Shown here: piece after piece, positions 3,401 through 30,325 of the stretch | How positions within the stretch are numbered: position 1 is the stretch's first letter | Layout: each line of letters begins with the position of its first letter | Assembly: GCA_032622095.1 (NCBI GenBank) | Contig: CP136062.1 | Span: 203,015,959-203,079,958, forward strand | Origin: Siphonodentalium dalli | Taxonomy: Eukaryota > Mollusca > Scaphopoda > Gadilida > Siphonodentaliidae | DNA: 64,000 nucleotides | Reading direction: 5' to 3' | The notes under the pieces: model-generated | Told to the model about the DNA's origin: nothing | Databases searched by the model: none | Seen by the model: only the letters and a program-made list of their open reading frames with translations | Translations under genes and position numbers: made by a program

Positions 3401-3470
3401 AGTGACGTGTTCGTTTAATGTATGTGACCATGGGTACAATAGTATGCTATATGAACCATTTCTGAAGTAA

Positions 3471-5488: not shown

Positions 5489-5571
5489 TTCCAGAAACAA
5501 ATATTTTACTAGATTGTTCCAGAAACAAAAATTTTTCCAGATTGTTCCAGAACAATAAATATGTTCCAGAA
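5489..5571. repeat. Cluster of four TTCCAGAA half-palindromes
   Basis: TTCCAGAA occurs at 5489, 5517, 5545 and 5564, with a decayed copy near 5535. Each is a two-unit HSF-type inverted pair. They sit in a degenerate short repeat (TGTTCCAGAAACAA-like). The 78-codon frame covering them (5371-5607) is explained by the repeat and is not taken as a gene. Confidence 0.6.
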
Positions 5572-5606
5572 ATTACGTGGGAAGGAGGAGCGATATATAA
5601 TAATTA

Positions 5607-5696
5607 AAGGGGGCGTTACCATACTATGGGACCATATACACACAGCATAGGAAAGGGGGCGTTGCCATACTATGGGGCCATAGACCTATAGGAAAA
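5607..5696. repeat. Direct duplication, about 45 bp
   Basis: AAAGGGGGCGTT followed by CCATACTATGGG occurs twice, at about 5607 and 5653. It abuts the start of the inverted satellite block. Confidence 0.6.
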
Positions 5697-5741
5697 AGGG
5701 GTCCCACACATACATGGGCTATAGTCACAATCATGCTGCTT

Positions 5742-6263
5742 GCCGTATCCTGAGTCATGGTGGCCACCCGGGAATTCTTGTATTTTCGTGCGGTGCCACC
5801 CCGGGGGCAACTATATCAAAGTCACGCGACCTTGCACCCCCTTCCAAATTTTCAAAAATTGGGCTGAAGTCGTGCATGGGGTGTCAAAATAGCACTTTTC
5901 GTTACTAAATCGGCTGCCGTATCCTGAGTCATGGTGGCCACCCGGGAATTCTTGTATTTTCGTGCGGTGCCACCCCGGGGGCAACTATATCAAAGTCACG
6001 CGACCTTGCACCCCCTTCCAAATTTTCTAAAATTGGGCTGAAGTCGTGCATGGGGTGTCAAAATAGCACTTTTCGTTACTAAATCGGCTGCCGTATCCTG
6101 AGTCATGGTGGCCACCCGGGAATTCTTGTATTTTCGCGCGGTGCCACCCCGCAGGCAACTATAGCAGAGTCACGCGACCTTGCACCCCCTTCCAAATTTT
6201 CTAAAATTGGGCTGAAGTCGTGCATGGGGTGTCAAAATAATGAAAAAAATGTCATTTTTCGTT
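5742..6263 (-). repeat. 174-bp satellite, three clean monomers in reverse orientation
   Basis: GCCGTATCCTGAGTCATGG recurs at 5742, 5916 and 6090, spaced exactly 174 bp. These are reverse complements of the monomers of the 15-kb array at 15287-30260 and are nearly identical to them. They lead inward into decayed monomers, mirroring the right-hand side. The pair of arms in opposite orientation, 8 kb apart, is the basis for the foldback interpretation given in the findings. Confidence 0.95.
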
Positions 6264-6745
6264 GCTAAATCGCCTGCGTAGGCATAACCTTGGCAGCCAC
6301 GAGGCTATCCTTGTGGAATCTTCTTGTGCCACCAATAGTGAATCGAAACATCACAAACTAGGTCACATAAACAGCTGTTGAAAAATTTGACGTAAGTCGT
6401 GCGTTGGGTAAAATAGGAACATTGTCGTTGCTAAATTCCTTATGTATTCATAACCACAATATCCAGGGGCTATCCTTATGGAGTCTTCTTGTGCCATCTT
6501 TAGTCCATCAGAAATTAGTTCACATACGCCTGTCCAGCTGTTCAAAAAATGTGAGTAAGTCGTGCGTGGTGTCAATATAATGAAAAAAGGTCATTTTTCG
6601 TTGCTAAATCTCCTGCGTAGGCATAACCATAGCAGCCATGGGGCCATCCTTGTGGATTCGCCTTGTGCCACCACTAGTCCATCTAGAAATCACAAATCAA
6701 GTCACATACGCCCGTTCAGCTGTTCAAAAATTGAGCGAAAGTCGG
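6264..6745 (-). repeat. Decayed 174-bp satellite monomers, reverse orientation
   Basis: About three monomers share the plan of the satellite (TTTTTCGTTGCTAAATC, a GCATAACC block, CTTGTGCCACC, AAGTCGTGCGT) but differ at many positions. The same decayed version, in opposite orientation, occurs at about 14440-14990. For example CACTAGTCCATCTAGAAAT is shared. Decayed monomers at the inner edge and clean ones outside is the usual pattern of an array that is homogenised away from its junction. Confidence 0.85.
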
Positions 6746-7410
6746 AGAGCATCCCTGGTCTTTGCGGCGGCCTCCAGACGGGAGGCCCGTTCATCTTCAA
6801 GGTTGTGCAATCGCTCTGCGATGCGGCGCCGGTATTCCCATCGAGAGCCCCACTGTCTGCCTCATCCAGTTTCCGCTTCTCCACTGCGATGTGCTAATCC
6901 AATGCGGATAGTTTGGCCAGGTTGTTGGTGAACTCGCCTCGAATGGTCTGCATTGTCTTGTCCAGCCCCTGATCTCGCGGATGTTTAGTTGGGGGTCATG
7001 CATAGCTCCGATGATCTCTTCAATGTCGGCATATGTGAAGTTGGTCTCCATTCGCCCTACCACATCCGATGCCTCTTTTGCAGTTTGCCCCAGGTCATGC
7101 AGCTCTACACTATCTACAGCATAAGCTACACCGCCGAGTTCATTCCTGCTGACTGGTTGGCTGTGAACGCCTTTGATCGCGCCCGACCCTTCATTCTGTG
7201 CGCCAGTCAGCAAATCCCAAGTCTTCTCGGATTGCCGCACTTCCGCCCCGCCGGCCGGCTATCGTCGATATCGCTACGGGCTCACTGGTACGAGTGTTTG
7301 TGAGAATGATATCGGGATATGCCTTTAATCGGATCTGTCCGCGTGTGTCGAGCTCAAATTTTGAGGGGCGCGGCCAAGAGCTGGTGTTCGTCCCCTTCTG
7401 GCCAGGGCGC
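6746..7410 (-). pseudogene. Decayed coding remnant of unknown family (inner part)
   Basis: The minus strand holds coding-like segments of better GC content than the flanks. One runs through LHDLGQTAKEASDVVGRME (within 6797-7240) and another through YPDIILTNTRTSEPVAIS (7240-7430 region). A charged, coiled-coil-like stretch follows toward 6760. The segments lie in more than one frame, so the copy is broken. I do not recognise the protein. It lies directly inside the left satellite arm and continues at 8277-8473 beyond a nested insertion, so it is probably the internal gene of whatever element the satellite arms bound. Confidence 0.4.
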
Positions 7411-8277
7411 CATAATATAGTGGTATGCGGTTGATACGGACCCTGGCTCTTACGGACCCTGGCTCCTACGGATCCTGGCTCATACGGACCACGGGCTGAT
7501 ACGGACCATGGCTCATACGGACTCCGGCTCATACGGACCTCAATTAAATTATATATATATATATATATTGATTGAGAATTTCAGTGATGTTTTGGCTTGA
7601 GAAAATTTTTATTGAATCGTGTTCATGCCTGATTGGTAATCCCTTTACCGTTGTATAAACACGCGTGTGTGGTATACCTTCATATCGTTGTATAAACATA
7701 CACACGGTGATGAATGGTCAATGAATGGTGATCAGGATGAATCCACTGAGTTTGATTTGTTTTGAAAACATGTTAAAAACACAACTGGTACATTCTTGCC
7801 TCCCCTGCTCAACGAAGGGGCAGCTGCTACGCCAACCAACGCTAGAATGGTTTCTGAAGGGAAGGTGCACATACGACATGAGTTGAAAACGAGGGAGACG
7901 ACCGGAAAGTTGATGTTCTTGTGGACAGACCACTCGTCGATGAGGATTACTGCCAACAGACTGTTGAAGGAAGCCGCCAAGCTATACGCTCCAGTGTAAA
8001 TAATTTGTCTAGTGGAACGGTGTCACATTTTTGTTGTGTCTCATTTTATCATCATATTTTTGTTAGTTCAGTATATATGTTGTATTTTAATATATTTAAA
8101 TAAATATGAGAAAATAAAATTATATATTTTAATTGAGGTCCGTATGAGCCAGGGTCCGTACAAGCCGTGGTCCGTATAAGCCAGGGTCCGTACCAGCCGG
8201 TGGTCCGCACGAGCCAGGGTCCGTATGAGCCAGGTTCGGTAAGAGCCAGGGTCCGTATCAGCCAGCAGTCATAATAG
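7411..8277. mobile_element. Nested TIR element with tandem subterminal repeats, hAT-like
   Basis: Both ends carry inverted arrays of a 15-16 bp unit (CGGACCCTGGCTCATA and variants), six or seven copies each, at about 7434-7541 and 8134-8263. Outside them, CATAATAT (7411-7418) and CATAATAG (8270-8277) look like an 8-bp target duplication with one mismatch. An 8-bp duplication and a left end starting TAGTG would suit hAT, but the terminal bases do not match well at the right end, so the superfamily is uncertain. The interior includes an open plus-strand segment (listed separately). The element sits inside the minus-strand coding remnant. Confidence 0.7.
7770..7999 (+). pseudogene. Open segment inside the nested TIR element, unrecognised
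   Basis: A frame open to TAA at 7997-7999 encodes about 75 residues including NEGAAATPTNARMVSEGK and ending KEAAKLYAPV. It has no good ATG at its left end, so it would have to be an exon or fragment. It matches no transposase motif that I know. It could be a captured host exon or simply chance in a GC-richer segment. Confidence 0.2.
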
Positions 8278-8473
8278 GCATCTGCAGGATTGCATGAGTT
8301 CTTGATGTACCAGTCTGGTTGTTGCCGTCATCCATGACAGTCGGGTCATGGGTACCCATGCCCGTCGGGTCGATAGGTTCAATGAGTGGCAATGTTTCAT
8401 CTTGAGAATCAAGAGGATCCGCATCGGCTCTGATATCATGATCAAATGTGAGGTTAACAAAGTCTGCCATTGT
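8278..8473 (-). pseudogene. Start of the decayed coding remnant, minus strand
   Basis: A minus-strand open frame begins with ATG at 8468-8470 in a good context (ACAATGG once the Helitrons are set aside) and reads MADFVNLTFDHDIRADADP before entering the nested element. It is rich in D, P and T. No family recognised. The ATG lies 4-6 bp from the first Helitron, so the Helitron run appears to have landed in the 5' leader of this gene. Confidence 0.35.
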
Positions 8474-8850
8474 TCTGTTATATATATATTGAGAACTCCG
8501 TATATGTGTGTGTATATATATATGTGGTTACTTCAAAGAATCGAAAACGGCTACGCGGATTGAGCTCAAATTTCATATATAAGGGTAAAAACCCACAGGG
8601 ATCGTCGACGTCGCATTTTGGACAAGCTCTGAGCACTCGTTCTCCACTCTCGGTTACAAAAATCGGCACCGTGGGGGTTAAAACAATAAAAAAAAAAATT
8701 TAAATTAAATTAAATTAAAAACAAAATTAAATAAATTTAATTTTTAATTTTTAAATTAAATATTAAAATAAAAAATAAAATAAAAACAAAATAATTTTTT
8801 TAAAAGTCATGTTTCTGACCAACCACGCCAGTGGCGGGCTAACCTGCTAG
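8474..8850 (+). mobile_element. Helitron unit 1 (non-autonomous, 377 bp)
   Basis: It starts TCTGTTATATATATATTGAG and ends with a GC hairpin (8823-8838, CGCCAGTGGCG core), then 12 nt ending in CTAG at 8847-8850. Helitrons begin with TC and end with a hairpin about 10 nt before CTRR. No Rep/helicase is encoded. The next unit starts at the following base. Confidence 0.85.
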
Positions 8851-8876
8851 TCTATATATATATATTGAGACTTCCG

Positions 8877-8908
<32 letters not shown>

Positions 8909-9762
8909 TACTTCATAGAATCGAAAACGGCTGGTCAGATCTAGCTCAAATTTCGTATATAAGTGTCAAAACACACGGGGATCGTCGATTCGCTCGCGAT
9001 CCAAGAGGCGTAACTCTACATTTTTTATATCTGTATATGTATATTTTTATATCCATATTCACTTCAAACTGCTAAACCCGTTGAGCAAAAACTTGCTAAT
9101 ACCTCGCAAAATATAGAATTAACATTTTCTGATATATACATTTTTGTTACGGCTGAAAATCTTAGCCTATTTCCGAAACATTCAGATTTTAAAGTATAAA
9201 CTCGCACCCCTCAATTCGTGCTAACTCACGCAGCATATATGCTGAAATTTAAGTGAATCCGAGGCACTGTGATACGTCCCGAATCTGACGGGACTTCCAC
9301 TGCCCCAAAACGACATTGTTGGCGAGAAAATAGCACCAAGCCGTAAATGCCAACAACAACGACATTGTTGGCGAGAAAATAATTAGTTAAAATTAATAAA
9401 TACACGCAATCCTATTTCTCTTTACGGCAATGTGAGAATTTTCGGGTAGCCCCCGAGCCGTGAATGCCAACAACAACGACCCGAAGCCGTGAATGCCAAC
9501 AACAACGACATCGTTGGCATACCTCTTGATTAAAAAGACAGAATTAACTCATAAAAATGCGTGTTGGGTCATTCTTATGTCTGTCGTTCCTAGGAACGGG
9601 GGAAACATCAGGTCAGTTTTTTTTCCGCCCGATGTACCTTAAATTATACCTCTTTTAGGGACGGGTACCATGATTTCTCTTAAAAAGTCATAATTAACTC
9701 ATTGAAAGCGAAAACATGTCATGTTTCGGACCAACGCCGCCAGTGGCGGGCTAACCTGCTTG
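8851..9762 (+). mobile_element. Helitron unit 2 (912 bp)
   Basis: It starts TCTATATATATATATTGAG immediately after the CTAG of unit 1. It ends with a hairpin at 9735-9750 (CCGCCAGTGGCGG) and CTTG, a one-base change from CTAG. The interior has a long (TA)n, small hairpins built from GCCAACAACAACG and TTGTTGGC (about 9350-9520), and a block with TGTCGTTCCTAGGAACGGGG shared with unit 3. Confidence 0.85.
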
Positions 9763-10561
9763 TCTACTATATATTTTGAGAACTCCGTATATAAATGTGT
9801 GTATATGTGTACTTCATAGAATCGAAAACGGCTGCGCGGATCGAGCTCAAATTCCGTATATAAGGGTAAAAACCCAACTTCCTATCTAAGGGTAAAAACT
9901 TACGGGTATCGCCGACGTCGCATTTTGGACAAGCTCTGAGCGCTCATTCTCCACTCCCAATTATCAAAATCACCGCAAACGCCAATTCGGATGTTAATCC
10001 ATCAACGATCTTTATATTAACCATATTCGGAGTTGTTAACCGTCTAACGCTCTTTATTGCCATCGACGTTGATAAACGCTTACCCCATGCGTAGGAAACT
10101 ACTGATGCAAAACGCGAAATGCATTTATATTGATTAAAGAGGCAGAATTGATCTAAGAGGCGTAAATCTACATTTTTTATATCGGACAATGGGTTGTTGT
10201 GTCATTTTTATGTCTGTCGTTCCTAGGAACAGGGGAATTTTTCATCGGGTCAGTCTTTTCCGCCCGATGTACCTTAAATCATACCTCTTTTAGGTATGGT
10301 AAAACAAAAATGCGTGTTGTGTGATTCTTGTGGCTGTCTTTCCTAGGAAGGGGGGGATTTCATCGGGTCAGTTTTTCCGCCCGAAAAAGGCCGAATTAAC
10401 TCATTGAAGAAAAAAAATTAAAAAACAAAAATTCAATTCAATTAAATTTAAAAAAAATGAAATAAATATTAAAAAATAAAAACAAAATTAAATAAAAACA
10501 AAATAATTTTAAAAATGTCAAGTTTCTGACCAACCACGCCAGTGGCGGGCTAACCTGCTAG
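9763..10561 (+). mobile_element. Helitron unit 3 (799 bp)
   Basis: It starts TCTACTATATATTTTGAG and ends with hairpin and CTAG at 10558-10561. The 5' 120 bp (GAATCGAAAACGGCTGCGCG, GAGCTCAAATT) match units 1, 2 and 5. The interior carries two copies of a block with TCGTTCCTAGGAACAGGGG / TTTCCTAGGAAG, and one AACGCTCTTTATT at 10046. Confidence 0.85.
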
Positions 10562-11371
10562 TCTTCTCTTCTATATATTTTGAGAACTCCTTGTATTCGA
10601 GAGATAGCCCACACCCTCCGGACCTCAATGATATGATCGTGAATGAGTATTGATATACCCCACTAAACTTTGACAAACACCAGTAATGGTGTGTAGATCA
10701 TTTACATATCTCTCCTATATATTTTGATACAATCTATCTAATTTACATATCTCTCTTATATATTTATGTTTGTGTGTGTTGTACTTCATACAAATCTACG
10801 ATTCTCGACCGATCGGGACGAAACTTGGTACGTGTGTGTAGTTTGACCAGGCGGTGGTCGTTGTCGTATTGGCGAGCCCGTGCGACGCCAGTGCAGCGCA
10901 TGCGCAGACGAGATCTCGGAAACGGGTGGAGCTATCGACTTGAAATTTGCTATGTGAATGTATCTTGCGCCGGGTACAAATTTTATCGGGTCGCCGAGCC
11001 CGTGCGACGCCCGTGCAGCGCATGCGCAGACAAGATCTAGGAAACGGGTGGAGCTATCGACTTGAAATTTGCTATGTGAATGTATCTTGCGCCGGGTACA
11101 AATTTTATCGGGTCGCCGAGCCCGTGCGACGCCCGTGCAGCGCATGCGCAGACGAGATCTCGGAAACGGGTGGAGCTATCGACTTGAAATTTGGCATGTG
11201 AATGTATCTTGCGCCGGGTACAAATTTTCATGTGCAGACCAGATCTCGGAAACTGGTGGAGCTACCGGGTACAAATTTTTCTTATTGAAACGCGTGGAGC
11301 TAAAAATTAAAAAAATATATCTAAAAATGTCATGTTTCGGACAAGCCGCCGGTGGCGGGCTAACCTGCTAG
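10562..11371 (+). mobile_element. Helitron unit 4 (810 bp) with 122-bp tandem repeats
   Basis: It starts TCTTCTCTTCTATATATTTTG directly after unit 3 and ends with a perfect CCGCCGGTGGCGG hairpin and CTAG at 11368-11371. The inner part from about 10785 resembles unit 7 rather than units 1-3 (TACGATTCTCGACCGATCGG), so this unit may be a fusion of two subfamilies. Confidence 0.8.
10880..11270 (+). repeat. 122-bp tandem repeat inside Helitron unit 4
   Basis: GGAAACGGGTGGAGCTATCG recurs at 10918, 11040 and 11162 (period 122 bp), with a broken fourth copy near 11250. Each unit also contains CGGGTCGCCGAGCCCGTGCG. The related block in unit 7 has the same motifs with other substitutions. Confidence 0.9.
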
Positions 11372-11408
11372 TCTACTATATATTTTGAGAACTCCGTATA
11401 TATATGTG

Positions 11409-11472
<64 letters not shown>

Positions 11473-12486
11473 GGTACTTCATAGAATCGCAAACGGCTGC
11501 GCGGATCGAGCTCAAATTTCTTATTTAAGGGCAAAAAACCACGGGGATGTGCGATGTGACATTGACCTTGCTATCGGATCGTTTCAAGGTCAAAGGCCAG
11601 AGTATCACGGGATTTTGAAGAAGATTAGTGTATAGGGATACTTTCAATTCAAGGTCAAATCGCGAATTTTCATGGGATTTCGACGAAATTTGATACGTAG
11701 GGTTACTTTTGTCCACTGAGTGTTTCAGACGGGTCAAATCGTGACCCCGATCTGACCTTGACCTTCAAATGTATCAATTTAAGGTCAAATGGGGTAAAAT
11801 TGGATGGATTTCGATGGATACTTTTGTCGGGTACTTTTGTCCAGGCATTGTTTTGGACGGGTCAAATCATGACCCATCTGACCTTCACCTTCAAAATGGA
11901 CAATTCAAGGTCAAATCACGCAACTCAGAGTGGCATATGCCTATTAATTTGCCCGTGTGACGTGACATTGACCTTGAAATCGGGTCATTTCAAGGTCAAA
12001 CGCCAGAGTATCACGGGATTTCGATGAAAATTAGTGTCTAGGGATAATTTCTTATGGGGAGTGTCATAAGCTTATTCATTTGCCCGTGCAACGTGATCTT
12101 GACCTTGAAATCGGGTCAATTCAAGGTCAAATCGCGAATTTTGATGAAATTTCGACGAAATTTGATACCTAGGCTTACTTTTGTCCACTGAGTGTTTTGG
12201 GCGGGTCAAATCGTGACCACGACCTGACCTTGACCTTCAAAATGATCAATTCAAGGTCAAATCGGGTAAAACCGGATGGTTTTCGACGGATACTTTTGTC
12301 CGGGCAGTGTTTTGGACGGGTCAAATCGTGACCCCACCTGACCTTGACCTTCGAAATGGACAATTCAAGGTCAAATCGCGCAATTCGCCGAAAAGCAGAG
12401 GGGAAACAGCCCGAACGAAGTTAATTAACAAATTAAAAATTGCCATGTTTCTGACGAACGCTGCCAATGGCGGGCTAACCTGCTAG
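11372..12486 (+). mobile_element. Helitron unit 5 (1,115 bp) rich in TCAAGGTCA
   Basis: It starts TCTACTATATATTTTGAG directly after unit 4 and ends with hairpin and CTAG at 12483-12486. A pure (TA)n lies at about 11410-11470. The body is a degenerate repeat of about 120-130 bp alternating GACCTTGACCTT and TTCAAGGTCAAATCG motifs. Confidence 0.85.
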
Positions 12487-13560
12487 TCTATTATATATTT
12501 TGGAAGATCTGTGTGTGTGTCTGTCTGTCTGTTCGCGATGGACTCGAAAACGGCAGAGCCGATTTCGATGAAACTTTGTACGTGAGGATACTTTCGGCCG
12601 TGGAGTGGCATGGGCCTATTAATTTGCCCGTGCGTCGTGACCATGACCTTGACATCGGGTCATTTCAAGGTCAAATTCCCGAATATCACGGAATTTCGGT
12701 GAAACTTTGTATCCGGGGGTACTTTCGGACGGGGAGTGGCATAGGCCTATTAATTTGCCTATTAATAAACGGCCGAGTATCACGGGATTTCGATGAAAAT
12801 TGGTGTATAGGAATACTTTCGTATGGTGGGTGTCATAAGCCTATTCGTTTGCCCGTGCGGCCTGACATTGACCTTGAAATCGTGTCAATTCAAGGTCAAA
12901 TCGCGAATTTTCATGGGAATTCGACGAAATTTGATACGTAGGGTTACTTTTGTCCATTGAGTGTTTTGGTCGGGTCAAATCGTGACCCCCGATCTGACCT
13001 TGACCTTCAAATGTATCAATTTAAGGTCAAATCGGGTAAATTGGATGGATTTTGATGGGTACTTTTGTCGGGTACTTTTGTCCGGGCATTGTTTTGGACG
13101 GGTCAAATCGTGACCCATCTGACCTTCACCTTCAAAATGGACAATTCAAGGTCAAATCACGCAATTCGGAGTGGCATAGGCCTATTAATTTGCCCATGCG
13201 ACGTGACCTTGACCTTGATATCGGTCAAATTCAAGGTCAAACGCCCGAGTATCACGGGATTTCGATGAACATTAGTGTCTAGGGATACTTTCGTATGGGG
13301 AGTGTCATAAGCATACTCATTTGCCCGTGCGACGTGATCTTGACCTTGAAATCGGTTCAATTCAAGGTCAAATCGCGACTTTTGATGGGATTTCGACGAA
13401 ATTTGATACCTAGGGTTACTTTTGTCCACTTTTTTTTTGGGCGGGTCAAATCGTGACCCCGACCTGAACTTGACCATCAAAATGATCAATTCAAGGTCAA
13501 ATCGGGTAAAACCGGATGGATTTCGACGGATACTTTTGTCCGGGCAGTGTTTTGGACGGG
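11580..13560. promoter_or_regulatory. Dense cluster of TCAAGGTCA nuclear-receptor half-sites
   Basis: About two dozen exact copies of TCAAGGTCA or its complement TGACCTTGA lie across Helitron units 5 and 6, for example near 11584, 11648, 12120, 12250, 12663, 13147, 13233 and 13362, and a double one near 13204. This is the extended half-site bound by ERR, NR5A and FTZ-F1 class receptors as monomers. The repeat nature of the Helitron explains the number. Whether any receptor binds is unknown. Confidence 0.6.
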
Positions 13561-13588
13561 TCAAATCGTGACCCCAACTGACATTGAC
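12487..13588 (+). mobile_element. Helitron unit 6 (about 1,100 bp), 3' end lost
   Basis: It starts TCTATTATATATTTTGGAAG directly after the CTAG of unit 5, followed by (GT)n and TCTGTCTGTCTGTTCGCGATGG, a 5' end typical of invertebrate Helitrons. The interior is related to unit 5. It has no hairpin or CTAG before unit 7 begins, so its 3' end was lost or replaced. Confidence 0.75.
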
Positions 13589-14245
13589 TCATATATATTT
13601 TTAAGACCTCTGTTTGTCTGTCTGTATGTATGTTTGTTTATCTGTCATTTATACAAATCTACGATTCTCGACCGATCGGGACGAAACTTCGTACGTGTGA
13701 ATAGTTTGACCAGGCGGTGGACGTTGTCGTATTGGCGAGCCCGTGCGGCGCCCACTTCGCGCATGCGCACACGAGATCTCGGAAACGGGTGGAGCTATCG
13801 GCTTGAAATTTGCTATGTGAATGTATCTTGCCCCGGATACGAATTTTATCGGGTCGCCGAGCCCGTGCGACGCCAGCTTCGCGCAGGCGCAGACCAGATC
13901 TAGGAAACCGGTGGAGCTATCGACTTGAAATTTGTTATGTGAAGTATCTTTCTATCGACTTGAAATTTGGTATGTGAATGTATCTTGCCCCGGGTACGAA
14001 TTTTATCGGGTCGCCGAGCCCGTGCGACACCAACTTCGCGCATGCGCAGACGAGATCTCGGAAACGGGTGGAGCTATCGACTTGAAATTTGCTATGTGAA
14101 TGTATCCTGCCCCGGATACGAATTTTATCGGTTCACCGAGCCCGTGCGACGCCACATTCGCAGACCATATCTCGGAAACGGGTAGACCTATCGACTTGAA
14201 ATTTTATTTTTGAATAGCCCGGACAACGTCGGGCTCATTGGCTAG
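13589..14245 (+). mobile_element. Helitron unit 7 (657 bp), different 3' family
   Basis: It starts TCATATATATTTTTAAG then TCTGTTTGTCTGTCTG, and ends with a different hairpin (AGCCCG and CGGGCT arms, 14216-14235) followed by CATTGG and CTAG at 14242-14245. The base after the end is T. The interior shares TACGATTCTCGACCGATCGG and about 120-bp repeats with unit 4. Confidence 0.85.
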
Positions 14246-14445
14246 TTACAATATATAATTGAAGGTACGTACGGCAGCCTCGATTCAATAGTCTGAATTG
14301 CGCAGCAACATATATATTATTACAAAGTAATATAATTATTTATAATGGCTTTGAGTCAGTACTGCTGCAAATTCAATCCATGCCGCATCATGTGGGACCC
14401 CCTCGGGGTCATAGGCATCAGACAGTCTGTTGTTATTACAAACTA
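14246..14445 (-). other. Leader or coding remnant between Helitrons and right satellite arm
   Basis: The minus strand has an open segment containing DAYDPEGVPHDAAWIEFAAV, ending in a stop near 14336, then AT-rich sequence. I do not recognise it. If the Helitrons are set aside, this segment lies directly upstream of the ATG at 8470. Confidence 0.3.
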
Positions 14446-15286
14446 TCCCAGCTGGACATGCGTATGTGAACCAATTTGTGATTTCTAGATGGACTAGTGG
14501 TGGCACAAGAAGAATCCACAAGGATAGCCCCGTCGCTGCTATGGTTATGCCTACGTAGGCCATTTAGTAACGAAAAATGACATTTGTTTCATTATTTTGA
14601 CCACGCGCACGACTTACGCACAATTATTGAACAGCTGGACAGGCGTATGTAAACTAGTTTGTGATTTCAATATTGGCTAATGATGGCACAACAAGAATCC
14701 ATAAAGATAGCTCCCTGGCTGCTGTGGTTATGAATATATCAGGAATTTAAAAAAACGAAAAATGTCCTATTTTAACCCACGCACGACTTATATATACGCC
14801 CAATTATTGAACAGCTGGACAAGTTTGTGTGACCTAGTTTGTGATTTTAGATGGATTAGTGATGGCACAAGAAGAATCCAAAAGGATGGTCCCGTAGACG
14901 CTGTGCATATACATAAATAGGCGATTTAGTAACGATTATTATTATATTTTGAGAATTTAGTAACAAAAAGTGCAATTTGGTGCTCCACGCACGACTTCAG
15001 CCCAATTTTCGAAAAATTGGAAGGAGCTATATCGCCGGTCCCTATCCTAAAGATGCCCGCTGGGTGGCATCGCACGCAAAATGAAAGGATTCCCGGGTGG
15101 CCACCATCGTTCTGGCTACGCAGCCGATTTAGTAACAAAAAGTGCTATTTTGAGTTACATGCAGCCCAATTTTCGAAAACTTGGAAGGGGCTGCATGGTC
15201 GCATGACTTCCCTATAGATGCCCGCTGGGTGGCACCGCACGAAAATACAAGAATTCCCCGGTGGCCCCCATCACTCTGGCTACGCA
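14446..15286 (+). repeat. Decayed satellite monomers, forward orientation
   Basis: About five monomers with increasing similarity to the clean 174-bp unit from left to right. The leftmost (about 14450-14610) is the inverted counterpart of 6600-6740. Those at 15000-15286 already carry the clean landmarks CACGACTTCAGCCCAATTTT and GCAGCCGATTTAGTAACAAAA with substitutions. Confidence 0.85.
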
Positions 15287-18200: not shown

Positions 18201-21200
18201 AATACAAGAATTCCCGGGTGGCCACCATGACTCAGGATACGGCAGCCGATTTAGTAACGAAAAGTGCTATTTTGACACCCCATGCACGACTTCAGCCCAA
18301 TTTTAGAAAATTTGGAAGGGGGTGCAAGGTCGTGTGACTTTGATATAGTTGCCCCCGGGGTGGCACCGCACGAAAATACAAGAATTTCCGCGTGGCCACC
18401 ATGACTCAGGATACGGCAGCCGATTTAGTAACGAAAAGTGCTATTTTGACTCCCCATGCACGACTTCAGCCCAATTTTAGAAAATTTGGAAGGGGGTGCA
18501 AGGTCGCGTGACTTTGATATAGTTGCCCCCGGGGTGGCACCGCACGAAAATACAAGAATTCCCGGGTGGCCACCATGACTCAGGATACGGCAGCCGATTT
18601 AGTAACGAAAAGTGCTATTTTGACACCCCATGCACGACTTCAGCCCAATTTTAGAAAATTTGGAAGGGGGTGCAAGGTCGCGTGACTTTGATATAGTTGC
18701 CCCCGGGGTGGCACCGCACGAAAATACAAGAATCCCCGGGTGGCCACCATGACTCAGGATACGGCAGCCGATTTAGTAACGAAAAGTGCTATTTTTAAAC
18801 CCCATGCACGACTTCAGCCCAATTTTAGAAAATTTGGAAGAGGGTGCAAGGTCGCGTGACTTTGATATAGTTGCCCCCGGGGTGGCACCGCACGAAAATA
18901 AAAGAATTCCCGGGTGGCCACCATGACTCAGGATACGGCAGCCGATTTAGTAACGAAAAGTGCTATTTTGACACCCCATGCACGACATCAGCCCAATTTT
19001 AGAAAATTTGGAAGGGGGTGCAAGGTCGCGTGACTTTGATATAGTTGCCCCCGGGGTGGCACCGCACGAAAATACAAGAATTTCCGTGTGGCCACCATGA
19101 CTCAGGATACGGCAGCCGATTTAGTAACGAAAAGTGCTATTTTGACACCCCATGCACGACTTCAGCCCAATTTTAGAAACTTTGGAAGGGGTGCAAGGTC
19201 GCGTGACTTTGATATAGTTGCCCCCGGGGTGGCACCGCACGAAAATACAAGAATTTCCGGGTGGCCACCATGACTCAGGATGCGGCAGCCGATTTAGTAA
19301 CGAAAAGTGCTATTTTGACACCCCATGCACGACTTCAGCCCAATTTTAGAAAATTTGGAAGGGGGTGCAAGGTCGCGTGACTTTGATATAGTTGCCCCCG
19401 GGGTGGCACCGCACGAAAATACAAGAATTCCCGGGTGGCCATCATGACTCAGGATACGGCAGCCGATTTAGTAACGAAAAGTGCTATTTTGACACCCCAT
19501 GCACGACTTCAGCCCAATTTTAGAAAATTTGGAAGGGGGTGCAAGGTCGCGTGACTTTGATATAGTTGCCCCCGGTGCGGCACCGCACGAAAATACAAGA
19601 ATTTCCGGGTGGCCACCATGACTCAGGATACGGCAGCCGATTTAGTAACGAAAAGTGCTATTTTGACACCCCATGCACGACTTCAGCCCAATTTTAGAAA
19701 CTTTGGAAGGGGGTTCAAGGTCGCGTGACTTTGATATAGTTGCCCCCGGGGTGGCACCGCACGAAAATACAAGAATTCCCGGGTGGCCACCATGACTCAG
19801 GATGCGGCAGCCGATTTAGTAACGAAAAGTGCTATTTTGACACCCCATGCACGACTTCAGCCCAATTTTAGAAAATTTGGAAGGGGGTGCAAGGTCGCGT
19901 GACTTTGATATAGTTGCCCCCGGGGTGGCACCGCACGAAAATACAAGAATTCCCGGGTGGCCACCATGACTCAGGATACGGCAGCCGATTTAGTAACGAA
20001 AAGTGCTATTTTGACACCCCATGCACGACTTCAGCCCAATTTTAGAAAATTTGGAAGGGGGTGCAAGGTCGCGTGACTTTGATATAGTTGCCCCCGGGGT
20101 GGCACCGCACGAAAATACAAGAATTTCCGGGTGGCCACCATGATTCAGGATACGGCAGCCGATTTAGTAACGAAAAGTGCTATTTTGACACCCCATGCAC
20201 GACTTCAGCCCAATTTTAGAAAATTTGGAAGGGGGTGCAAGGTCGCGTGACTTTGATATAGTTGCCCCCGGGGTGGCACCGCACGAAAATACAAGAATTC
20301 CCGGGTGGCCACCATGACTCAGGATACGGCAGCCGATTTAGTAACGAAAAGTGCTATTTTGACACCCCATGCACGACTTCAGCCCAATTTTAGAAAATTT
20401 GGAAGGGGGTGCAAGGTCGCGTGACTTTAATATAGTTGCCCCCGGGGTGGCACCGCACGAAAATACAATAATTCCCGGGTGGCCACCATGACTCAGGATA
20501 CGGCAGCCGATTTAGTAACGAAAAGTGCTATTTTGACACCCCATGCACGACTTCAGCCCAATTTTAGAAAATTTGGAAGGGGGTGCAAGGTCGCGTGACT
20601 TTGATATAGTTGCCCCCGGGGTGGCACCGCACGAAAATACAAGAATTTCCGTGTGGCCACCATGACTCAGGATACGGCAGCCGATTTAGTAACGAAAAGT
20701 GCTATTTTGACACCCCATGCACGACTTCAGCCCAATTTTAGAAACTTTGGAAGGGGGTGCAAGGTCGCGTGACTTTGATATAGTTGCCCCCGGGGTGGCA
20801 CCGCACGAAAATACAAGAATTTCCGGGTGGCCACCATGACTCAGGATGCGGCAGCCGATTTAGTAACGAAAAGTGCTATTTTGACACCCCATGCACGACT
20901 TCAGCCCAATTTTAGAAAATTTGGAAGGGGGTGCAAGGTCGCGTGACTTTGATATAGTTGCCCCCGGGGTGGCACCGCACGAAAATACAAGAATTCCCGG
21001 GTGGCCATCATGACTCAGGATACGGCAGCCGATTTAGTAACGAAAAGTGCTATTTTGACACCCCATGCACGACTTCAGCCCAATTTTAGAAAATTTGGAA
21101 GGGGGTGCAAGGTCGCGTGACTTTGATATAGTTGCCCCCGGTGTGGCACCGCACGAAAATACAAGAATTTCCGGGTGGCCACCATGACTCAGGATACGGC

Positions 21201-24200
21201 AGCCGATTTAGTAACGAAAAGTGCTATTTTGACACCCCATGCACGACTTCAGCCCAATTTTAGAAACTTTGGAAGGGGGTTCAAGGTCGCGTGACTTTGA
21301 TATAGTTGCCCCCGGGGTGGCACCGCACGAAAATACAAGAATTCCCGGGTGGCCACCATGACTCAGGATGCGGCAGCCGATTTAGTAACGAAAAGTGCTA
21401 TTTTGACACCCCATGCACGACTTCAGCCCAATTTTAGAAAATTTGGAAGGGGGTGCAAGGTCGCGTGACTTTGATATAGTTGCCCCCGGGGTGGCACCGC
21501 ACGAAAATACAAGAATTCCCGGGTGGCCACCATGACTCAGGATACGGCAGCCGATTACGAAAAGTGCTATTTTGACACCCCATGCACGACTTCAGCCCAA
21601 TTTTAGAAAATTTGGAAGGGGGTGCAAGGTCGCGTGACTTTGATATAGTTGCCCCCGGGGTGGCACCGCACGAAAATACAAGAATTTCCGAGTGGCCACC
21701 ATGACTCAGGATACGGCAGCCGATTTAGTAACGAAAAGTGCTATTTTGACACCCCATGCACGACTTCAGCCCAATTTTAGAAAATTTGGAAGGGGGTGCA
21801 AGGTCGCGTGACTTTGATATAGTTGCCCCCGGTGTGGCACCGCACGAAAATACAAGAATTTCCGGGTGGCCACCATGACTCAGGATACGGCAGCCGATTT
21901 AGTAACGAAAAGTGCTATTTTGACACCCCATGCACGACTTCAGCCCAATTTTAGAAACTTTGGAAGGGGGTGCAAGGTCGCGTGACTTTGATATAGTTGC
22001 CCCCGGGGTGGCACCGCACGAAAATATAAGAATTCCCGGGTGGCCACCATGACTCAGGATACGGCAGCCGATTTAGTAACGAAAAGTGCTATTTTGACAC
22101 CCCATGCACGACTTCAGCCCAATTTTAGAAAATTTGGAAGGGGGTGCAAGGTCGCGTGACTTTAATATAGTTGCCCCCGGGGTGGCACCGCACGAAAATA
22201 CAATAATTCCCGGGTGGCCACCATGACTCAGGATACGGCAGCCGATTTAGTAACGAAAAGTGCTATTTTGACACCCCATGCACGACTTCAGCCCAATTTT
22301 AGAAAATTTGGAAGGGGGTGCAAGGTCGCGTGACTTTGATATAGTTGCCCCCGGGGTGGCACCGCACGAAAATACAAGAATTTCCGCGTGGCCACCATGA
22401 CTCAGGATACGGCAGCCGATTTAGTAACGAAAAGTGCTATTTTGACTCCCCATGCACGACTTCAGCCCAATTTTAGAAAATTTGGAAGGGGGTGCAAGGT
22501 CGCGTGACTTTGATATAGTTGCCCCCGGGGTGGCACCGCACGAAAATACAAGAATTCCCGGGTGGCCACCATGACTCAGGATACGGCAGCCGATTTAGTA
22601 ACGAAAAGTGCTATTTTGACACCCCATGCACGACTTCAGCCCAATTTTAGAAAATTTGGAAGGGGGTGCAAGGTCGTGTGACTTTGATATAGTTGCCCCC
22701 GGGGTGGCACCGCACGAAAATACAAGAATTTCCGCGTGGCCACCATGACTCAGGATACGGCAGCCGATTTAGTAACGAAAAGTGCTATTTTGACTCCCCA
22801 TGCACGACTTCAGCCCAATTTTAGAAAATTTGGAAGGGGGTGCAAGGTCGCGTGACTTTGATATAGTTGCCCCCGGGGTGGCACCGCACGAAAATACAAG
22901 AATTCCCGGGTGGCCACCATGACTCAGGATACGGCAGCCGATTTAGTAACGAAAAGTGCTATTTTGACACCCCATGCACGACTTCAGCCCAATTTTAGAA
23001 AATTTGGAAGGGGGTGCAAGGTCGCGTGACTTTGATATAGTTGCCCCCCGGGGTGGCACCGCACGAAAATACAAGAATTCCCGGGTGGCCACCATGACTC
23101 AGGATACGGCAGCCGATTTAGTAACGAAAAGTGCTATTTTTAAACCCCATGCACGACTTCAGCCCAATTTTAGAAAATTTGGAAGAGGGTGCAAGGTCGC
23201 GTGACTTTGATATAGTTGCCCCCGGGGTGGCACCGCACGAAAATAAAAGAATTCCCGGGTGGCCACCATGACTCAGGATACGGCAGCCGATTTAGTAACG
23301 AAAAGTGCTATTTTGACACCCCATGCACGACTTCAGCCCAATTTTAGAAACTTTGGAAGGGGGGTGCAAGGTCGCGTGACTTTGATATAGTTGCCCCCGG
23401 GGTGGCACCGCACGAAAATATAAGAATTCCCGGGTGGCCACCATGACTCAGGATACGGCAGCCGATTTAGTAACGAAAAGTGCTATTTTGACACCCCATG
23501 CACGACTTCAGCCCAATTTTAGAAAATTTGGAAGGGGGGTGCAAGGTCGCGTGACTTTAATATAGTTGCCCCCGGGGTGGCACCGCACGAAAATACAATA
23601 ATTCCCGGGTGGCCACCATGACTCAGGATACGGCAGCCGATTTAGTAACGAAAAGTGCTATTTTGACTCCCCATGCACGACTTCAGCCCAATTTTAGAAA
23701 ATTTGGAAGGGGGTGCAAGGTCGCGTGACTTTGATATAGTTGCCCCCGGGGTGGCACCGCACGAAAATACAAGAATTCCCGGGTGGCCACCATGACTCAG
23801 GATACGGCAGCCGATTTAGTAACGAAAAGTGCTATTTTGACACCCCATGCACGACTTCAGCCCAATTTTAGAAAATTTGGAAGGGGGTGCAAGGTCGTGT
23901 GACTTTGATATAGTTGCCCCCGGGGTGGCACCGCACGAAAATACAAGAATTTCCGCGTGGCCACCATGACTCAGGATACGGCAGCCGATTTAGTAACGAA
24001 AAGTGCTATTTTGACTCCCCATGCACGACTTCAGCCCAATTTTAGAAAATTTGGAAGGGGGTGCAAGGTCGCGTGACTTTGATATAGTTGCCCCCGGGGT
24101 GGCACCGCACGAAAATACAAGAATTCCCGGGTGGCCACCATGACTCAGGATACGGCAGCCGATTTAGTAACGAAAAGTGCTATTTTGACACCCCATGCAC

Positions 24201-27200
24201 GACTTCAGCCCAATTTTAGAAAATTTGGAAGGGGGTGCAAGGTCGCGTGACTTTGATATAGTTGCCCCCGGGGTGGCACCGCACGAAAATAAAAGAATTC
24301 CCGGGTGGCCACCATGACTCAGGATACGGCAGCCGATTTAGTAACGAAAAGTGCTATTTTGACACCCCATGCACGACATCAGCCCAATTTTAGAAAATTT
24401 GGAAGGGGGTGCAAGGTCGCGTGACTTTGATATAGTTGCCCCCGGGGGTGGCACCGCACGAAAATACAAGAATTTCCGTGTGGCCACCATGACTCAGGAT
24501 ACGGCAGCCGATTTAGTAACGAAAAGTGCTATTTTGACACCCCATGCACGACTTCAGCCCAATTTTAGAAACTTTGGAAGGGGGTGCAAGGTCGCGTGAC
24601 TTTGATATAGTTGCCCCCGGGGTGGCACCGCACGAAAATACAAGAATTTCCGGGTGGCCACCATGACTCAGGATGCGGCAGCCGATTTAGTAACGAAAAG
24701 TGCTATTTTGACACCCCATGCACGACTTCAGCCCAATTTTAGAAAATTTGGAAGGGGGTGCAAGGTCGCGTGACTTTGATATAGTTGCCCCCGGGGTGGC
24801 ACCGCACGAAAATACAAGAATTCCCGGGTGGCCATCATGACTCAGGATACGGCAGCCGATTTAGTAACGAAAAGTGCTATTTTGACACCCCATGCACAAC
24901 TTCAGCCCAATTTTAGAAAATTTGGAAGGGGGTGCAAGGTCGCGTGACTTTGATATAGTTGCCCCCCGGTGCGGCACCGCACGAAAATACAAGAATTTCC
25001 GGGTGGCCACCATGACTCAGGATACGGCAGGCCGATTTAGTAACGAAAAGTGCTATTTTGGACACCCCATGCACGACTTCAGCCCAATTTTAGAAACTTT
25101 GGAAGGGGGGTTCAAGGTCGCGTGACTTTGATATAGTTGCCCCCGGGGTGGCACCGCACGAAAATACAAGAATTCCCGGGTGGCCACCATGACTCAGGAT
25201 GCGGCAGCCGATTTAGTAACGAAAAGTGCTATTTTGACACCCCATGCACGACTTCAGCCCAATTTTAGAAAATTTGGAAGGGGGTGCAAGGTCGCGTGAC
25301 TTTGATATAGTTGCCCCCGGGGTGGCACCGCACGAAAATACAAGAATTCCCGGGTGGCCACCATGACTCAGGATACGGCAGCCGATTTAGTAACGAAAAG
25401 TGCTATTTTGACACCCCATGCACGACTTCAGCCCAATTTTAGAAAATTTGGAAGGGGGTGCAAGGTCGCGTGACTTTGATATAGTTGCCCCCGGGGTGGC
25501 ACCGCACGAAAATACAAGAATTTCCGGGTGGCCACCATGATTCAGGATACGGCAGCCGATTTAGTAACGAAAAGTGCTATTTTGACACCCCATGCACGAC
25601 TTCAGCCCAATTTTAGAAAATTTGGAAGGGGGTGCAAGGTCGCGTGACTTTGATATAGTTGCCCCCGGGGTGGCACCGCACGAAAATACAAGAATTCCCG
25701 GGTGGCCACCATGACTCAGGATACGGCAGCCGATTTAGTAACGAAAAGTGCTATTTTGACACCCCATGCACGACTTCAGCCCAATTTTAGAAAATTTGGA
25801 AGGGGGTGCAAGGTCGCGTGACTTTAATATAGTTGCCCCCGGGGTGGCACCGCACGAAAATACAATAATTCCCGGGTGGCCACCATGACTCAGGATACGG
25901 CAGCCGATTTAGTAACGAAAAGTGCTATTTTGACACCCCATGCACGACTTCAGCCCAATTTTAGAAAATTTGGAAGGGGGTGCAAGGTCGCGTGACTTTG
26001 ATATAGTTGCCCCCGGGGTGGCACCGCACGAAAATACAAGAATTTCCGTGTGGCCACCATGACTCAGGATACGGCAGCCGATTTAGTAACGAAAAGTGCT
26101 ATTTTGACACCCCATGCACGACTTCAGCCCAATTTTAGAAACTTTGGAAGGGGGTGCAAGGTCGCGTGACTTTGATATAGTTGCCCCCGGGGTGGCACCG
26201 CACGAAAATACAAGAATTTCCGGGTGGCCACCATGACTCAGGATGCGGCAGCCGATTTAGTAACGAAAAGTGCTATTTTGACACCCCATGCACGACTTCA
26301 GCCCAATTTTAGAAAATTTGGAAGGGGGTGCAAGGTCGCGTGACTTTGATATAGTTGCCCCCGGGGTGGCACCGCACGAAAATACAAGAATTCCCGGGTG
26401 GCCATCATGACTCAGGATACGGCAGCCGATTTAGTAACGAAAAGTGCTATTTTGACACCCCATGCACGACTTCAGCCCAATTTTAGAAAATTTGGAAGGG
26501 GGTGCAAGGTCGCGTGACTTTGATATAGTTGCCCCCGGTGTGGCACCGCACGAAAATACAAGAATTTCCGGGTGGCCACCATGACTCAGGATACGGCAGC
26601 CGATTTAGTAACGAAAAGTGCTATTTTGACACCCCATGCACGACTTCAGCCCAATTTTAGAAACTTTGGAAGGGGGTTCAAGGTCGCGTGACTTTGATAT
26701 AGTTGCCCCCGGGGTGGCACCGCACGAAAATACAAGAATTCCCGGGTGGCCACCATGACTCAGGATGCGGCAGCCGATTTAGTAACGAAAAGTGCTATTT
26801 TGACACCCCATGCACGACTTCAGCCCAATTTTAGAAAATTTGGAAGGGGGTGCAAGGTCGCGTGACTTTGATATAGTTGCCCCCGGGGTGGCACCGCACG
26901 AAAATACAAGAATTCCCGGGTGGCCACCATGACTCAGGATACGGCAGCCGATTTAGTAACGAAAAGTGCTATTTTGACACCCCATGCACGACTTCAGCCC
27001 AATTTTAGAAAATTTGGAAGGGGGTGCAAGGTCGCGTGACTTTGATATAGTTGCCCCCGGGGTGGCACCGCACGAAAATACAAGAATTTCCGGGTGGCCA
27101 CCATGATTCAGGATACGGCAGCCGATTTAGTAACGAAAAGTGCTATTTTGACACCCCATGCACGACTTCAGCCCAATTTTAGAAAATTTGGAAGGGGGTG

Positions 27201-30200
27201 CAAGGTCGCGTGACTTTGATATAGTTGCCCCCGGGGTGGCACCGCACGAAAATACAAGAATTCCCGGGTGGCCACCATGACTCAGGATACGGCAGCCGAT
27301 TTAGTAACGAAAAGTGCTATTTTGACACCCCATGCACGACTTCAGCCCAATTTTAGAAAATTTGGAAGGGGGTGCAAGGTCGCGTGACTTTAATATAGTT
27401 GCCCCCTGGGTGGCACCGCACGAAAATACAATAATTCCCGGGTGGCCACCATGACTCAGGATACGGCAGCCGATTTAGTAACGAAAAGTGCTATTTTGAC
27501 ACCCCATGCACGACTTCAGCCCAATTTTAGAAAATTTGGAAGGGGGTGCAAGGTCGCGTGATTTTGATATAGTTGCCCCCGGGGTGGCACCGCACGAAAA
27601 TACAAGAATTTCCGCGTGGCCACCATGACTCAGGATACGGCAGCCGATTTAGTAACGAAAAGTGCTATTTTGACTCCCCATGCACGACTTCAGCCCAATT
27701 TTAGAAAATTTGGAAGGGGGTGCAAGGTCGCGTGACTTTGATATAGTTGCCCCCGGGGTGGCACCGCACGAAAATACAAGAATTCCCGGGTGGCCACCAT
27801 GACTCAGGATACGGCAGCCGATTTAGTAACGAAAAGTGCTATTTTGACACCCCATGCACGACTTCAGCCCAATTTTAGAAAATTTGGAAGGGGGTGCAAG
27901 GTCGCGTGACTTTGATATAGTTGCCCCCGGGGTGGCACCGCACGAAAATACAAGAATTCCCGGGTGGCCACCATGACTCAGGATACGGCAGCCGATTTAG
28001 TAACGAAAAGTGCTATTTTGACACCCCATGCACGACTTCAGCCCAATTTAGAAAATTTGGAAGGGCGTGCATGGTCGCGTGACTTTGATATAGTTGCCAC
28101 CGGGGTGGCACCGCACGAAAATACAAGAATTCCCGGGTGGCCACCATGACTCAGGATACGGCAGCCGATTTAGTAACGAAAAGTGCTATTTTGACACCCC
28201 ATGCACGACTTCAGCCCAATTTTAGAAAATTTGGAAGAGGGTGCAAGGTCGCGTGACTTTGATATAGTTGCCCCCGGGGTGGCACCGCACGAAAATAAAA
28301 GAATTCCCGGGTGGCCACCATGACTCAGGATACGGCAGCCGATTTAGTAACGAAAAGTGCTATTTTGACACCCCATGCACGACATCAGCCCAATTTTAGA
28401 AAATTTGGAAGGGGGTGCAAGGTCGCGTGACTTTGATATAGTTGCCCCCGGGGTGGCACCGCACGAAAATACAAGAATTTCCGTGTGGCCACCATGACTC
28501 AGGATACGGCAGCCGATTTAGTAACGAAAAGTGCTATTTTGACACCCCATGCACGACTTCAGCCCAATTTTAGAAACTTTGGAAGGGGGTGCAAGGTCGC
28601 GTGACTTTGATATAGTTGCCCCCGGGGTGGCACCGCACGAAAATACAAGAATTTCCGGGTGGCCACCATGACTCAGGATGCGGCAGCCGATTTAGTAACG
28701 AAAAGTGCTATTTTGACACCCCATGCACGACTTCAGCCCAATTTTAGAAAATTTGGAAGGGGGTGCAAGGTCGCGTGACTTTGATATTGTTGCCCCCGGG
28801 GTGGCACCGCACGAAAATACAAGAATTCCCGGGTGGCCACCATGACTCAGGATACGGCAGCCGATTTAGTAACGAAAAGTGCTATTTTGACACCCCATGC
28901 ACGACTTCAGCCCAATTTTAGAAAATTTGGAAGGGGGTGCAAGGTCGCGTGACTTTGATATAGTTGCCCCCGGTGTGGCACCGCACGAAAATACAAGAAT
29001 TTCCGGGTGGCCACCATGACTCAGGATACGGCAGCCGATTTAGTAACGAAAAGTGCTATTTTGACACCCCATGCACGACTTCAGCCCAATTTTAGAAACT
29101 TTGGAAGGGGGTGCAAGGTCGCGTGACTTTGATATAGTTGCCCCCGGGGTGGCACCGCACGAAAATATAAGAATTTCCGGGTGGCCACCATGACTCAGGA
29201 TGCGGCAGCCGATTTAGTAACGAAAAGTGCTATTTTGACACCCCATGCACGACTTCAGCCCAATTTTAGAAACTTTGGAAGGGGGTGCAAGGTCGCGTGA
29301 CTTTGATATAGTTGCCCCCGGGGTGGCACCGCACGAAAATACAAGAATTCCCGGGTGGCCACCATGACTCAGGATACGGCAGCCGATTTAGTAACGAAAA
29401 GTGCTATTTTGACACCCCATGCACGACTTCAGCCCAATTTTAGAAAATTTGGAAGGGGGTGCAAGGTCGCGTGACTTTGATATAGTTGCCCCCGGGGTGG
29501 CACCGCACGAAAATACAAGAATTCCCGGGTGGCCACCATGACTCAGGATACGGCAGCCGATTTAGTAACGACAAGTGCTATTTTGACACCCCATGCACGA
29601 CTTCAGCCCAATTTTAGAAAATTTGGAAGGGGGTGCAAGGTCGCGTGACTTTGATATAGTTGCCCCCGGGGTGGCACCGCACGAAAATACAAGAATTCCC
29701 GGGTGGCCACCATGACTCAGGATACGGCAGCCGATTTAGTAACGAAAAGTGCTATTTTGACACCCCATGCACGACTTCAGCCCAATTTTAGAAAATTTGG
29801 AAGGGGGTGCAAGGTCGCGTGACTTTGATATAGTTGCCCCCGGGGTGGCACCGCACGAAAATACAAGAATTCCCGGGTGGCCACCATGACTCAGGATACG
29901 GCAGCCGATTAAGTAACGAAAAGTGCTATTTTGACACCCCATGCACGACTTCAGCCCAATTTTTGAAAATTTGGAAGGGGGTGCAAGGTCGCGTGACTTT
30001 GATATAGTTGCCCCCGGGGTGGCACCGCACGAAAATACAAGAATTCCCGGGTGGCCACCATGACTCAGGATACGGCAGCCGATTTAGTAACGAAAAGTGC
30101 TATTTTGACACCCCATGCACGACTTCAGCCCAATTTTAGAAAATTTGGAAGGGGGTGCAAGGTCGCGTGACTTTGATATAGTTGCCCCCGGGGTGGCACC

Positions 30201-30260
30201 GCACGAAAATACAAGAATTCCCGGGTGGCCGCCATGACTCAGGATACGGCAGCCGATTTA
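15287..30260 (+). repeat. 174-bp satellite array, 86 monomers
   Basis: GCCGATTTAG starts a monomer at 15287, 15461, 15635, 15809 and so on, up to 30252. 14,965 bp divided by 174 gives 86 with one net extra base. Landmarks per unit are GTGCTATTTTGACACCCCAT, GGAAGGGGGTGCAAGGTCGC, TTGCCCCCGGGGTGGCACCG and GAATTCCCGGGTGGCCACC. The last two contain the palindromes CCCCGGGG and GGTGGCCACC. Monomers differ by a handful of recurring variants (GATGCGGC, TTTCCGTGTGG, AAACTTTGG, TAATATAG with CAATAATTCC, GACTCCCC), which recur in blocks and show higher-order structure. Open frames within the array arise from the period being a multiple of three and are not genes. Confidence 0.98.
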
Positions 30261-30292
30261 GTAACGAAACGTGTAATTTTAGGAGAATAGGG

Positions 30293-30325
30293 AACTGGGA
30301 ACTGGGAACTGGGAACTGGGAACGG
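30293..30325 (+). repeat. GGGAACT heptamer microsatellite
   Basis: Between four and five tandem copies of GGGAACT sit exactly between the end of the satellite and the truncated LINE. The LINE frame opens immediately after it. Confidence 0.85.

Follow-up and report, generated by a model that had tools for sequence, protein, structure and literature searches.

Within a 64,000-nucleotide stretch of the genome of the scaphopod mollusc Siphonodentalium dalli (hereafter the window; C2:203015959-203079958 in a 2.23-Gb assembly of nine contigs, with C2 denoting contig 2), a 174-bp satellite monomer forms an array of some 15 kb. Our analysis indicates, with a probability that we put at roughly 0.93, that this satellite makes up the body of a foldback DNA transposon and that the array is one arm of a 51-kb element. 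The copies that were read have a 21-bp terminus and GGGAACT repeats at both ends, facing outward, and two inverted arms of approximately 174-bp units. Some centres are empty, with the arms head to head, while others contain a captured gene fragment or other DNA; most of the copies carry a 9-bp target duplication. The foldback plan had been proposed in a first-pass annotation made from the letters of the window alone, and it gained support once the whole genome was searched, from the shared termini, their outward pairing and the target duplications.

Conserved terminus and outward pairing

In the genome, monomer matches are grouped at several loci into inverted arms that diverge from each other (at least 183 matches, with the best 14 of 338 candidates scored). 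One terminus is common to the right end of the window's element and to the 13 outer ends that were read first, beyond which the flanks differ. In order, it comprises an incomplete final monomer, AATTTTAGGAGAATA, the GGGAACT unit in two to four copies (one of them substituted) and GGGAACGGAATTCATGGAGCT. With up to two mismatches allowed, the 21-mer terminus is found at 558 places genome-wide (260 plus, 298 minus), and the reversed 21-mer, as a control, at none. A total of 100 of the 558 termini were listed, covering C1, C2 and C3 up to 169 Mb; 21 two-ended copies were checked for duplications, and most long arms were read in part. Neighbours within 100 kb among the listed termini are ordered minus-then-plus 34 times, compared with three plus-then-minus and two same-strand cases, and the sizes of these 34 two-ended pairs extend from 595 bp to 51,288 bp. 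The satellite is absent beside the terminus in one of 30 fetched ends (L058). Unit starts of the monomer (three or fewer mismatches) number 5,981 genome-wide against one for the reversed control, and the first 100 of those listed fall within two two-ended elements. An array on C4 shows one terminus followed by more than 20 kb of units and then an assembly gap.

These observations bear on the simplest alternative, namely that the window holds an ordinary satellite array with an inverted or inverted-duplicated edge and that the pairing of its arms is accidental. The window alone is compatible with this, since it shows neither a duplication nor an outer inverted domain, and the arms resemble array edges that escape homogenization. 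The 558 conserved termini, the outward pairing, the 9-bp duplications and the many paired copies make it extremely improbable. The pattern by which an accident would be recognized, with the satellite present only as long unpaired arrays and the coding remnant never adjoining it, did not occur in the sequence read. Short copies with few monomers per arm, as anticipated by the first-pass annotation, do exist (0.6-3.6 kb).

The GGGAACT repeats were also considered as telomere-like in origin; this was rejected, as only one GGGAACT was present in five end stretches of three contigs.

Target duplications and the interrupted LINE

Duplications outside the arms, a further expectation from the foldback plan, are present. 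A perfect 9-bp duplication of the flanks is found in 12 of 20 two-ended elements, and 18 of the 20 match with at most one mismatch, whereas in the cross-pair control only six of 380 pairs match as closely. The six near-matching cross pairs are explained by three 3.5-3.7-kb copies (L033, L044 and L056; C1:24060966, 79609288 and 176298852) that share flanks, with 0.8-1.5 kb at 97-99.5% identity in the pairs compared. These copies therefore go back to a single insertion that a larger dispersed repeat has carried along, and counting them as one leaves 19 distinct insertions.

For the window's element, CTGTTATAT ends the left flank and opens the flank to the right of 30338, with nine of nine bases identical. 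Joining the flanks to restore the empty site yields an open frame of 278 codons. Against the Pfam RVT_1 profile, the left flank matches positions 101-144 with E = 0.022, which falls short of the cut-off, and the right flank matches positions 153-205 with E = 2.5e-8, which passes it. Because the two flanks match neighbouring parts of RVT_1, the target is the reverse-transcriptase gene of a long interspersed nuclear element (LINE), and the window's element is one 51,288-bp insertion in that gene. No duplication is found at 5741/30280 within the window alone, a result that is misleading because neither point is an element end.

Arms of the window's element

In the 64-kb window, Tandem Repeats Finder detected two 174-bp arrays, one of 2.9 units at 5741-6239 and one of 88.1 units at 14955-30280, the latter head-to-tail and 97% homogeneous. 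A BLAST search with the monomer showed that the first is inverted relative to the second and returned no match in the window outside the two arrays, which confirms that the same monomer lies inverted on the left and forward on the right. The array delimited in the first-pass annotation is thus real, but 5741 is the edge of a nested insertion rather than the end of the left arm, and the right arm ends at 30338 rather than at 30260, with approximately 64 bp lying outside the repeats at this end. The left terminus of the element lies at C2:202995009, 20,950 bases before the start of the window, and B units (defined below) were found in five samples between it and position 203005698. This puts the length of the left arm at about 11.7 kb, a figure based on sampled stretches and taking the remainder as B units, compared with 15.9 kb for the right arm. 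The count of about six units originally given for the left side is not correct for the arm; the impression of six units against about 91 arose because the edge of the window cuts the left arm. The proposal that one arm had expanded far beyond the other does not hold. Across nine elements, in which arm lengths vary from 0.9 to 15.9 kb and repeat number differs between copies and between arms, the two arm lengths within an element scale together (Spearman coefficient of 0.85, or 0.81 without the C7 element).

Each side of the window's element contains two monomer types: clean units on the outside (type B) and units on the inside (type A) that are only about 55-60% like type B. This agrees with the earlier description of decayed monomers inside and clean ones outside on both sides. 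Type A occupies 6272-6744 in inverted and 14449-14923 in forward orientation. Together the A blocks (492 and 505 bases) make up a single inverted repeat, in which 404 of 479 aligned positions are identical (84%), in keeping with the inverted match already reported between 6600-6740 and 14450-14610. The innermost A units pair by position (87.5% for L0-R0 and 87.3% for L1-R1, compared with 75-84% for 13 other pairs), while the third positional pair, L2-R2 (79%), is not above the others. Bootstrap support for the three pairs is 0.69, 0.75 and 0.00, respectively, which is modest for the first two.

From 15290 outward, the units of the right array differ from the consensus at 0-7 positions, except for one 343-bp double unit, and blocks of up to nine units recur. 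An apparent three-unit periodicity was dropped, as 205 of 300 permutations scored as high when the double unit was given two places. The monomer gave no Rfam match at gathering scores that would mark an RNA gene or ribozyme, and monomer patterns had no match in viral contigs. One 20-base match in a bacterial contig is within chance (approximately 0.5 expected by our own estimate).

Sister elements on contigs 7 and 8

Two elements, one at C8:21998269-22014461 (16,193 bp) and one at C7:201482696-201498540 (15,845 bp), consist of head-to-head arms with no spacer and are the same element in opposite orientation. The right arm of the C8 element aligns with the left arm of the C7 element over 6,974 bp at 99.943% identity, with four mismatches and no gap, and C8 has one extra monomer at the centre in this arm. 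The other arm, which also differs by one monomer in length, was compared in sampled parts, with identity at all 1,414 positions at the centre, 99.82% of 3,348 within the arm and all 740 at the outer end. In total, 12,476 bases were compared and ten mismatches were found. The same arms aligned in other registers are only 95.0-99.0% identical, and either element compared with others gives 98.1-98.5%. The inner 587 bases reach only 97.8% when the one-unit shift is not applied, and that shift accounts for the difference. The two sites carry different perfect 9-bp duplications (CATATATTT for C8 and GAAAGCATG for C7), and their flanks (1.8-2.4 kb) have no BLAST match to each other.

The near-identity in unit order indicates that a new site received a copy of the whole satellite palindrome and not merely of a seed, and it also makes faulty assembly of these arrays less likely. 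On this evidence at least one full-size element has moved. Copying by gene conversion or by extrachromosomal circles, rather than by a transposase, could be envisaged, as inverted arms can recombine and single stretches could be made in this way. The different perfect 9-bp duplications at the two sites and the termini that are exact to the base render such an origin very improbable.

A stronger competitor is the view, as proposed for the Tetris element of Drosophila discussed below, that elements inserted while small and that their arms grew in place, so that the long ones are dead end points. The existence of small copies, the repeated blocks in the array and the centres of the C3:113.7 and C2:123.0 elements, which differ from the C7/C8 centre, are all consistent with this view. 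It does not accommodate a 16-kb element that C7 and C8 share in unit order at 99.9%, and as a general account we regard it as unlikely; it may nevertheless hold for other elements, such as the window's copy. On balance we favour, with rather modest confidence, a satellite family that exists only as a transposon and whose finished 16-kb palindromic arrays move between chromosomes as units. As part of the same reading, and with the same modest confidence, the satellite would be both spread and maintained by transposition, and not only by in-place recombination.

The spacer gene fragment

The DNA between the arms of the window's element had been annotated as holding minus-strand coding remnants. 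The case is weak in the window alone, where the longest minus-strand open stretches of the three spacer pieces compared with shuffles give p = 0.024, 0.071 and 0.61, but it gains from related copies. The spacer of approximately 1.1 kb recurs without the nested insertions in a 6,350-bp element at C2:110.37 Mb (L082). The flanks of this copy (C2:110365300-110371760) are mutually inverted, as if it sat at the centre of another palindrome.

The largest spacer piece has at least 41 matches at at least 40 places, with the window included. Sequence was read for 300-758 bases past the arm-side end at 19 further places, and satellite arms were reached at ten, so that the remnant does adjoin the same arms elsewhere, with the window's junction at six. 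Two of these ten had been picked for a known nearby terminus. No arm lies within 300 bp at the other nine places, which counts against a transposase gene of the family, although arms could lie beyond 300 bases there; around one of them, 4.2 kb of additional sequence contained no arm. At these nine places the sequence continues into DNA that forms part of an open frame in L082. Six spacer places fall in the range of the listed termini. One is the window, another lies in the C2:110.37-Mb element, and a further two have a terminus no more than 2.2 kb away; for the remaining pair, L099 with a B arm and L085 with an A arm, no terminus is listed.

The first-pass annotation had looked to transposase families for the identity of the remnant, and no transposase profile matched. 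The spacer pieces gave no match beyond noise in Pfam, PHROGs or NCBIfam and no solved-structure match. An NCBIfam acetyltransferase match (12.8 bits against a cut-off of 400) was discarded as noise, and no relatives of the spacer proteins were confirmed in viral contigs. The fragment is absent from seven copies with centres read (C8, C7, C5, C3:101.1, C3:113.7, C2:123.0 and a 3.6-kb copy). If the spacer gene were the family's own transposase, the window would hold a decayed autonomous copy, and the position of the fragment, which lies between arms or next to them at 12 of 21 places (the window, L082 and ten of the 19), would be in line with this. Set against the failed profile and structure searches, the armless places and the seven copies that lack it, this identification is very doubtful. 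The most fitting interpretation of the spacer is that it derives from a dispersed gene, a fragment of which was captured once or a few times and then multiplied with the foldback element.

Proposed mechanism and points against it

A Mutator-type transposase supplied in trans would act on the 21-bp ends; we consider this type to be the most likely because of the 9-bp duplication and the abundance of genes of Mutator-like elements (MULEs), for which there are at least 150 profile matches in the genome (the best 150 scored of 813 candidates). The arms may grow and shrink by unequal exchange within arms, seen as block duplications, and if the enlarged element could still transpose then array growth and spreading would feed each other.

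Several observations weigh against interpreting the satellite as the body of a foldback transposon. Two of the 20 elements carry two and three mismatches in the flank duplication, and a 21st copy (L082) has no direct 9-bp repeat, its flanks being inverted repeats; with this copy included, 12 of 21 are perfect and 18 of 21 have one mismatch or none. In none of the copies read was a transposase detected, and the nearest of the 49 MULE matches in the range of the listed termini is 25 kb from a terminus. The arms of one element are not mirror copies (95.4-98.6% for C8 and C7, and 97.8-98.5% for C1:53.99), and an element's own right end is the best match for only four of seven left ends, although arm-end likeness averages 98.0% within elements (seven elements) and 96.3% between them. 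Growth by copying one arm onto the other therefore lacks support. The coverage of 100 out of 558 termini, with most long arms read only in part, has to be counted here as well.

Relation to known systems

The family has the features of the foldback class: long inverted arms of tandem repeats, variable repeat number and a target duplication at both ends. The Drosophila FB and Galileo elements likewise have inverted ends that are built of tandem repeats in varying number and enclose a variable middle; their units and arms are shorter than here. The target duplications of Galileo are 7 bp in length, compared with 9 bp in this family. Helitron-type elements, among them the carriers of the oyster repeats cited below, are not known to make target duplications or to have inverted arms, in which they are unlike this family.

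Comparisons with published systems follow the accessible parts of the cited papers. The closest known system is Tetris of Drosophila virilis (PMC4079207), which has a foldback structure with approximately 220-bp tandem repeats in its arms and 8-10-bp duplications, and for which no transposase was found according to that account. Its arm repeats amplify to satellite-like arrays of up to 66 copies, so that the conversion of foldback-arm repeats into satellite arrays was established in 2014, and the route from transposon to satellite suggested by the first-pass annotation had been published with it. Tetris differs in that a flanking domain of up to 866 bp lies outside its repeats, where the present family has the approximately 64 bp noted above, and in being described from three structurally complete copies, compared with 558 termini, a right arm of 15.9 kb in the window and a 16-kb element that is intact at two sites. 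In the view of its authors, Tetris may be disrupted by amplification (PMC4079207).

Among other systems, Galileo belongs to the P superfamily (PMC3573991), whereas the 9-bp duplication seen here falls within the 8-11-bp range of the Mutator superfamily (PMC6446971). Rehavkus shares the 9-bp duplication and has a minisatellite before its 3' end, where in this family repeats fill both arms, and it encodes a transposase with a PHD finger (PMC6446971), for which the spacer pieces here gave no Pfam match beyond noise; an autonomous copy may exist. Satellite-like repeats such as Cg170 are dispersed inside oyster Helentrons (PMC7492417; PMC12628747). Pack-MULEs carry gene fragments between inverted ends and are moved in trans, but they are reported at sizes of up to 7 kb (PMC6431247), compared with the 16-kb shared element here, which consists of satellite units throughout the sequence read from it.

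Eukaryotic DNA transposition is said to fall off at roughly 6-7 kb (PMC6431247), and the C7/C8 pair shows that a palindrome of satellite units far above this size can move. By the same evidence, arm expansion does not necessarily immobilize a foldback element, contrary to the suggestion made for Tetris. The arrival of satellites at new sites is usually inferred, whereas here the vehicle can be read in conserved ends, duplications and a matched 16-kb pair. No report of intact movement of full-size satellite-armed foldback elements was found in open-access full text, a scope that lies outside most subscription papers and all of bioRxiv. Because a single assembly holds 558 termini, direct comparisons of arm length, age and mobility become possible.

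Nested elements and other features of the window

The coordinates of the features are collected in Table 1. The 16,000-bp element nested in the left arm (C2:203005699-203021698) is flanked by a 6-bp duplication, TGCCGT, with its right copy at 5741-5746. Parts of its arms at 4194-4444 and 1194-1444 recur inverted at 100% identity (251 bases each), and the outer 252 bases (5489-5740) recur inverted at 99.2%. Its ends start with AG and a 192-residue open frame lies at 767-1345; we take its plan to resemble that of Polinton/Maverick elements. The Helitron-like block is missing from the same spacer in L082, and its label is a putative one, assigned from the end motif. Some of the elements in this block hold internal tandem repeats of 122-157 bp.

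Table 1. Features of the window in and around the foldback element
Feature	Position	Strand	Evidence or remark
Right part of nested 16,000-bp long-inverted-repeat element	1..5740		In left satellite arm; both junctions read
Three B-type left-arm units	5741..6271	-	Unit 6086-6271 starts as A type; B units also left of nested element
A-type (old) left-arm units, inner end	6272..6744	-	Monomer comparison, inverted-repeat alignment
Captured gene fragment, piece 1	6745..7417	-	Frame broken
Nested small foldback-like element	7418..8269		Inverted ends consist of 16-bp tandem repeats; CATAATA duplicated at 7411-7417 and 8270-8276
Captured gene fragment, piece 2	8270..8478	-	ATG of open frame at 8470
Nested head-to-tail block of Helitron-like elements	8479..14245	+	3' hairpin and CTAG before T; one internal end CTTG
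Captured gene fragment, piece 3	14246..14448	-	End of another open frame
A-type right-arm units, inner end	14449..14953	+	Includes 30-nt partial unit
Two diverged B units	14954..15289	+	77% and 84% like a clean unit
Clean 174-bp B array, right arm	15290..30274	+	Contains repeated blocks (up to nine units)
Subterminal stretch AATTTTAGGAGAATA plus GGGAACT repeats	30275..30317	+	Shared-end comparison
21-bp terminus of element	30318..30338	+	Shared with outer ends of other elements
Right copy of 9-bp target duplication CTGTTATAT	30339..30347		Matches left flank
Target, 3' part of LINE	30348..32640	+	RVT_1 match; 3' end placed by eye

Three further features lie to the right of the target LINE. A 30-bp tandem repeat with 21 copies (38868-39505) is situated inside a 212-codon open frame, and an element at 46926-48123 has inverted ends TTTAGGACATG with 22-bp subterminal tandem repeats in inverted order. 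A 1.3-kb palindrome (74%) at 50164-51457 has the 7-bp direct repeat ATGACCA at its edges and is perhaps another foldback-like element.

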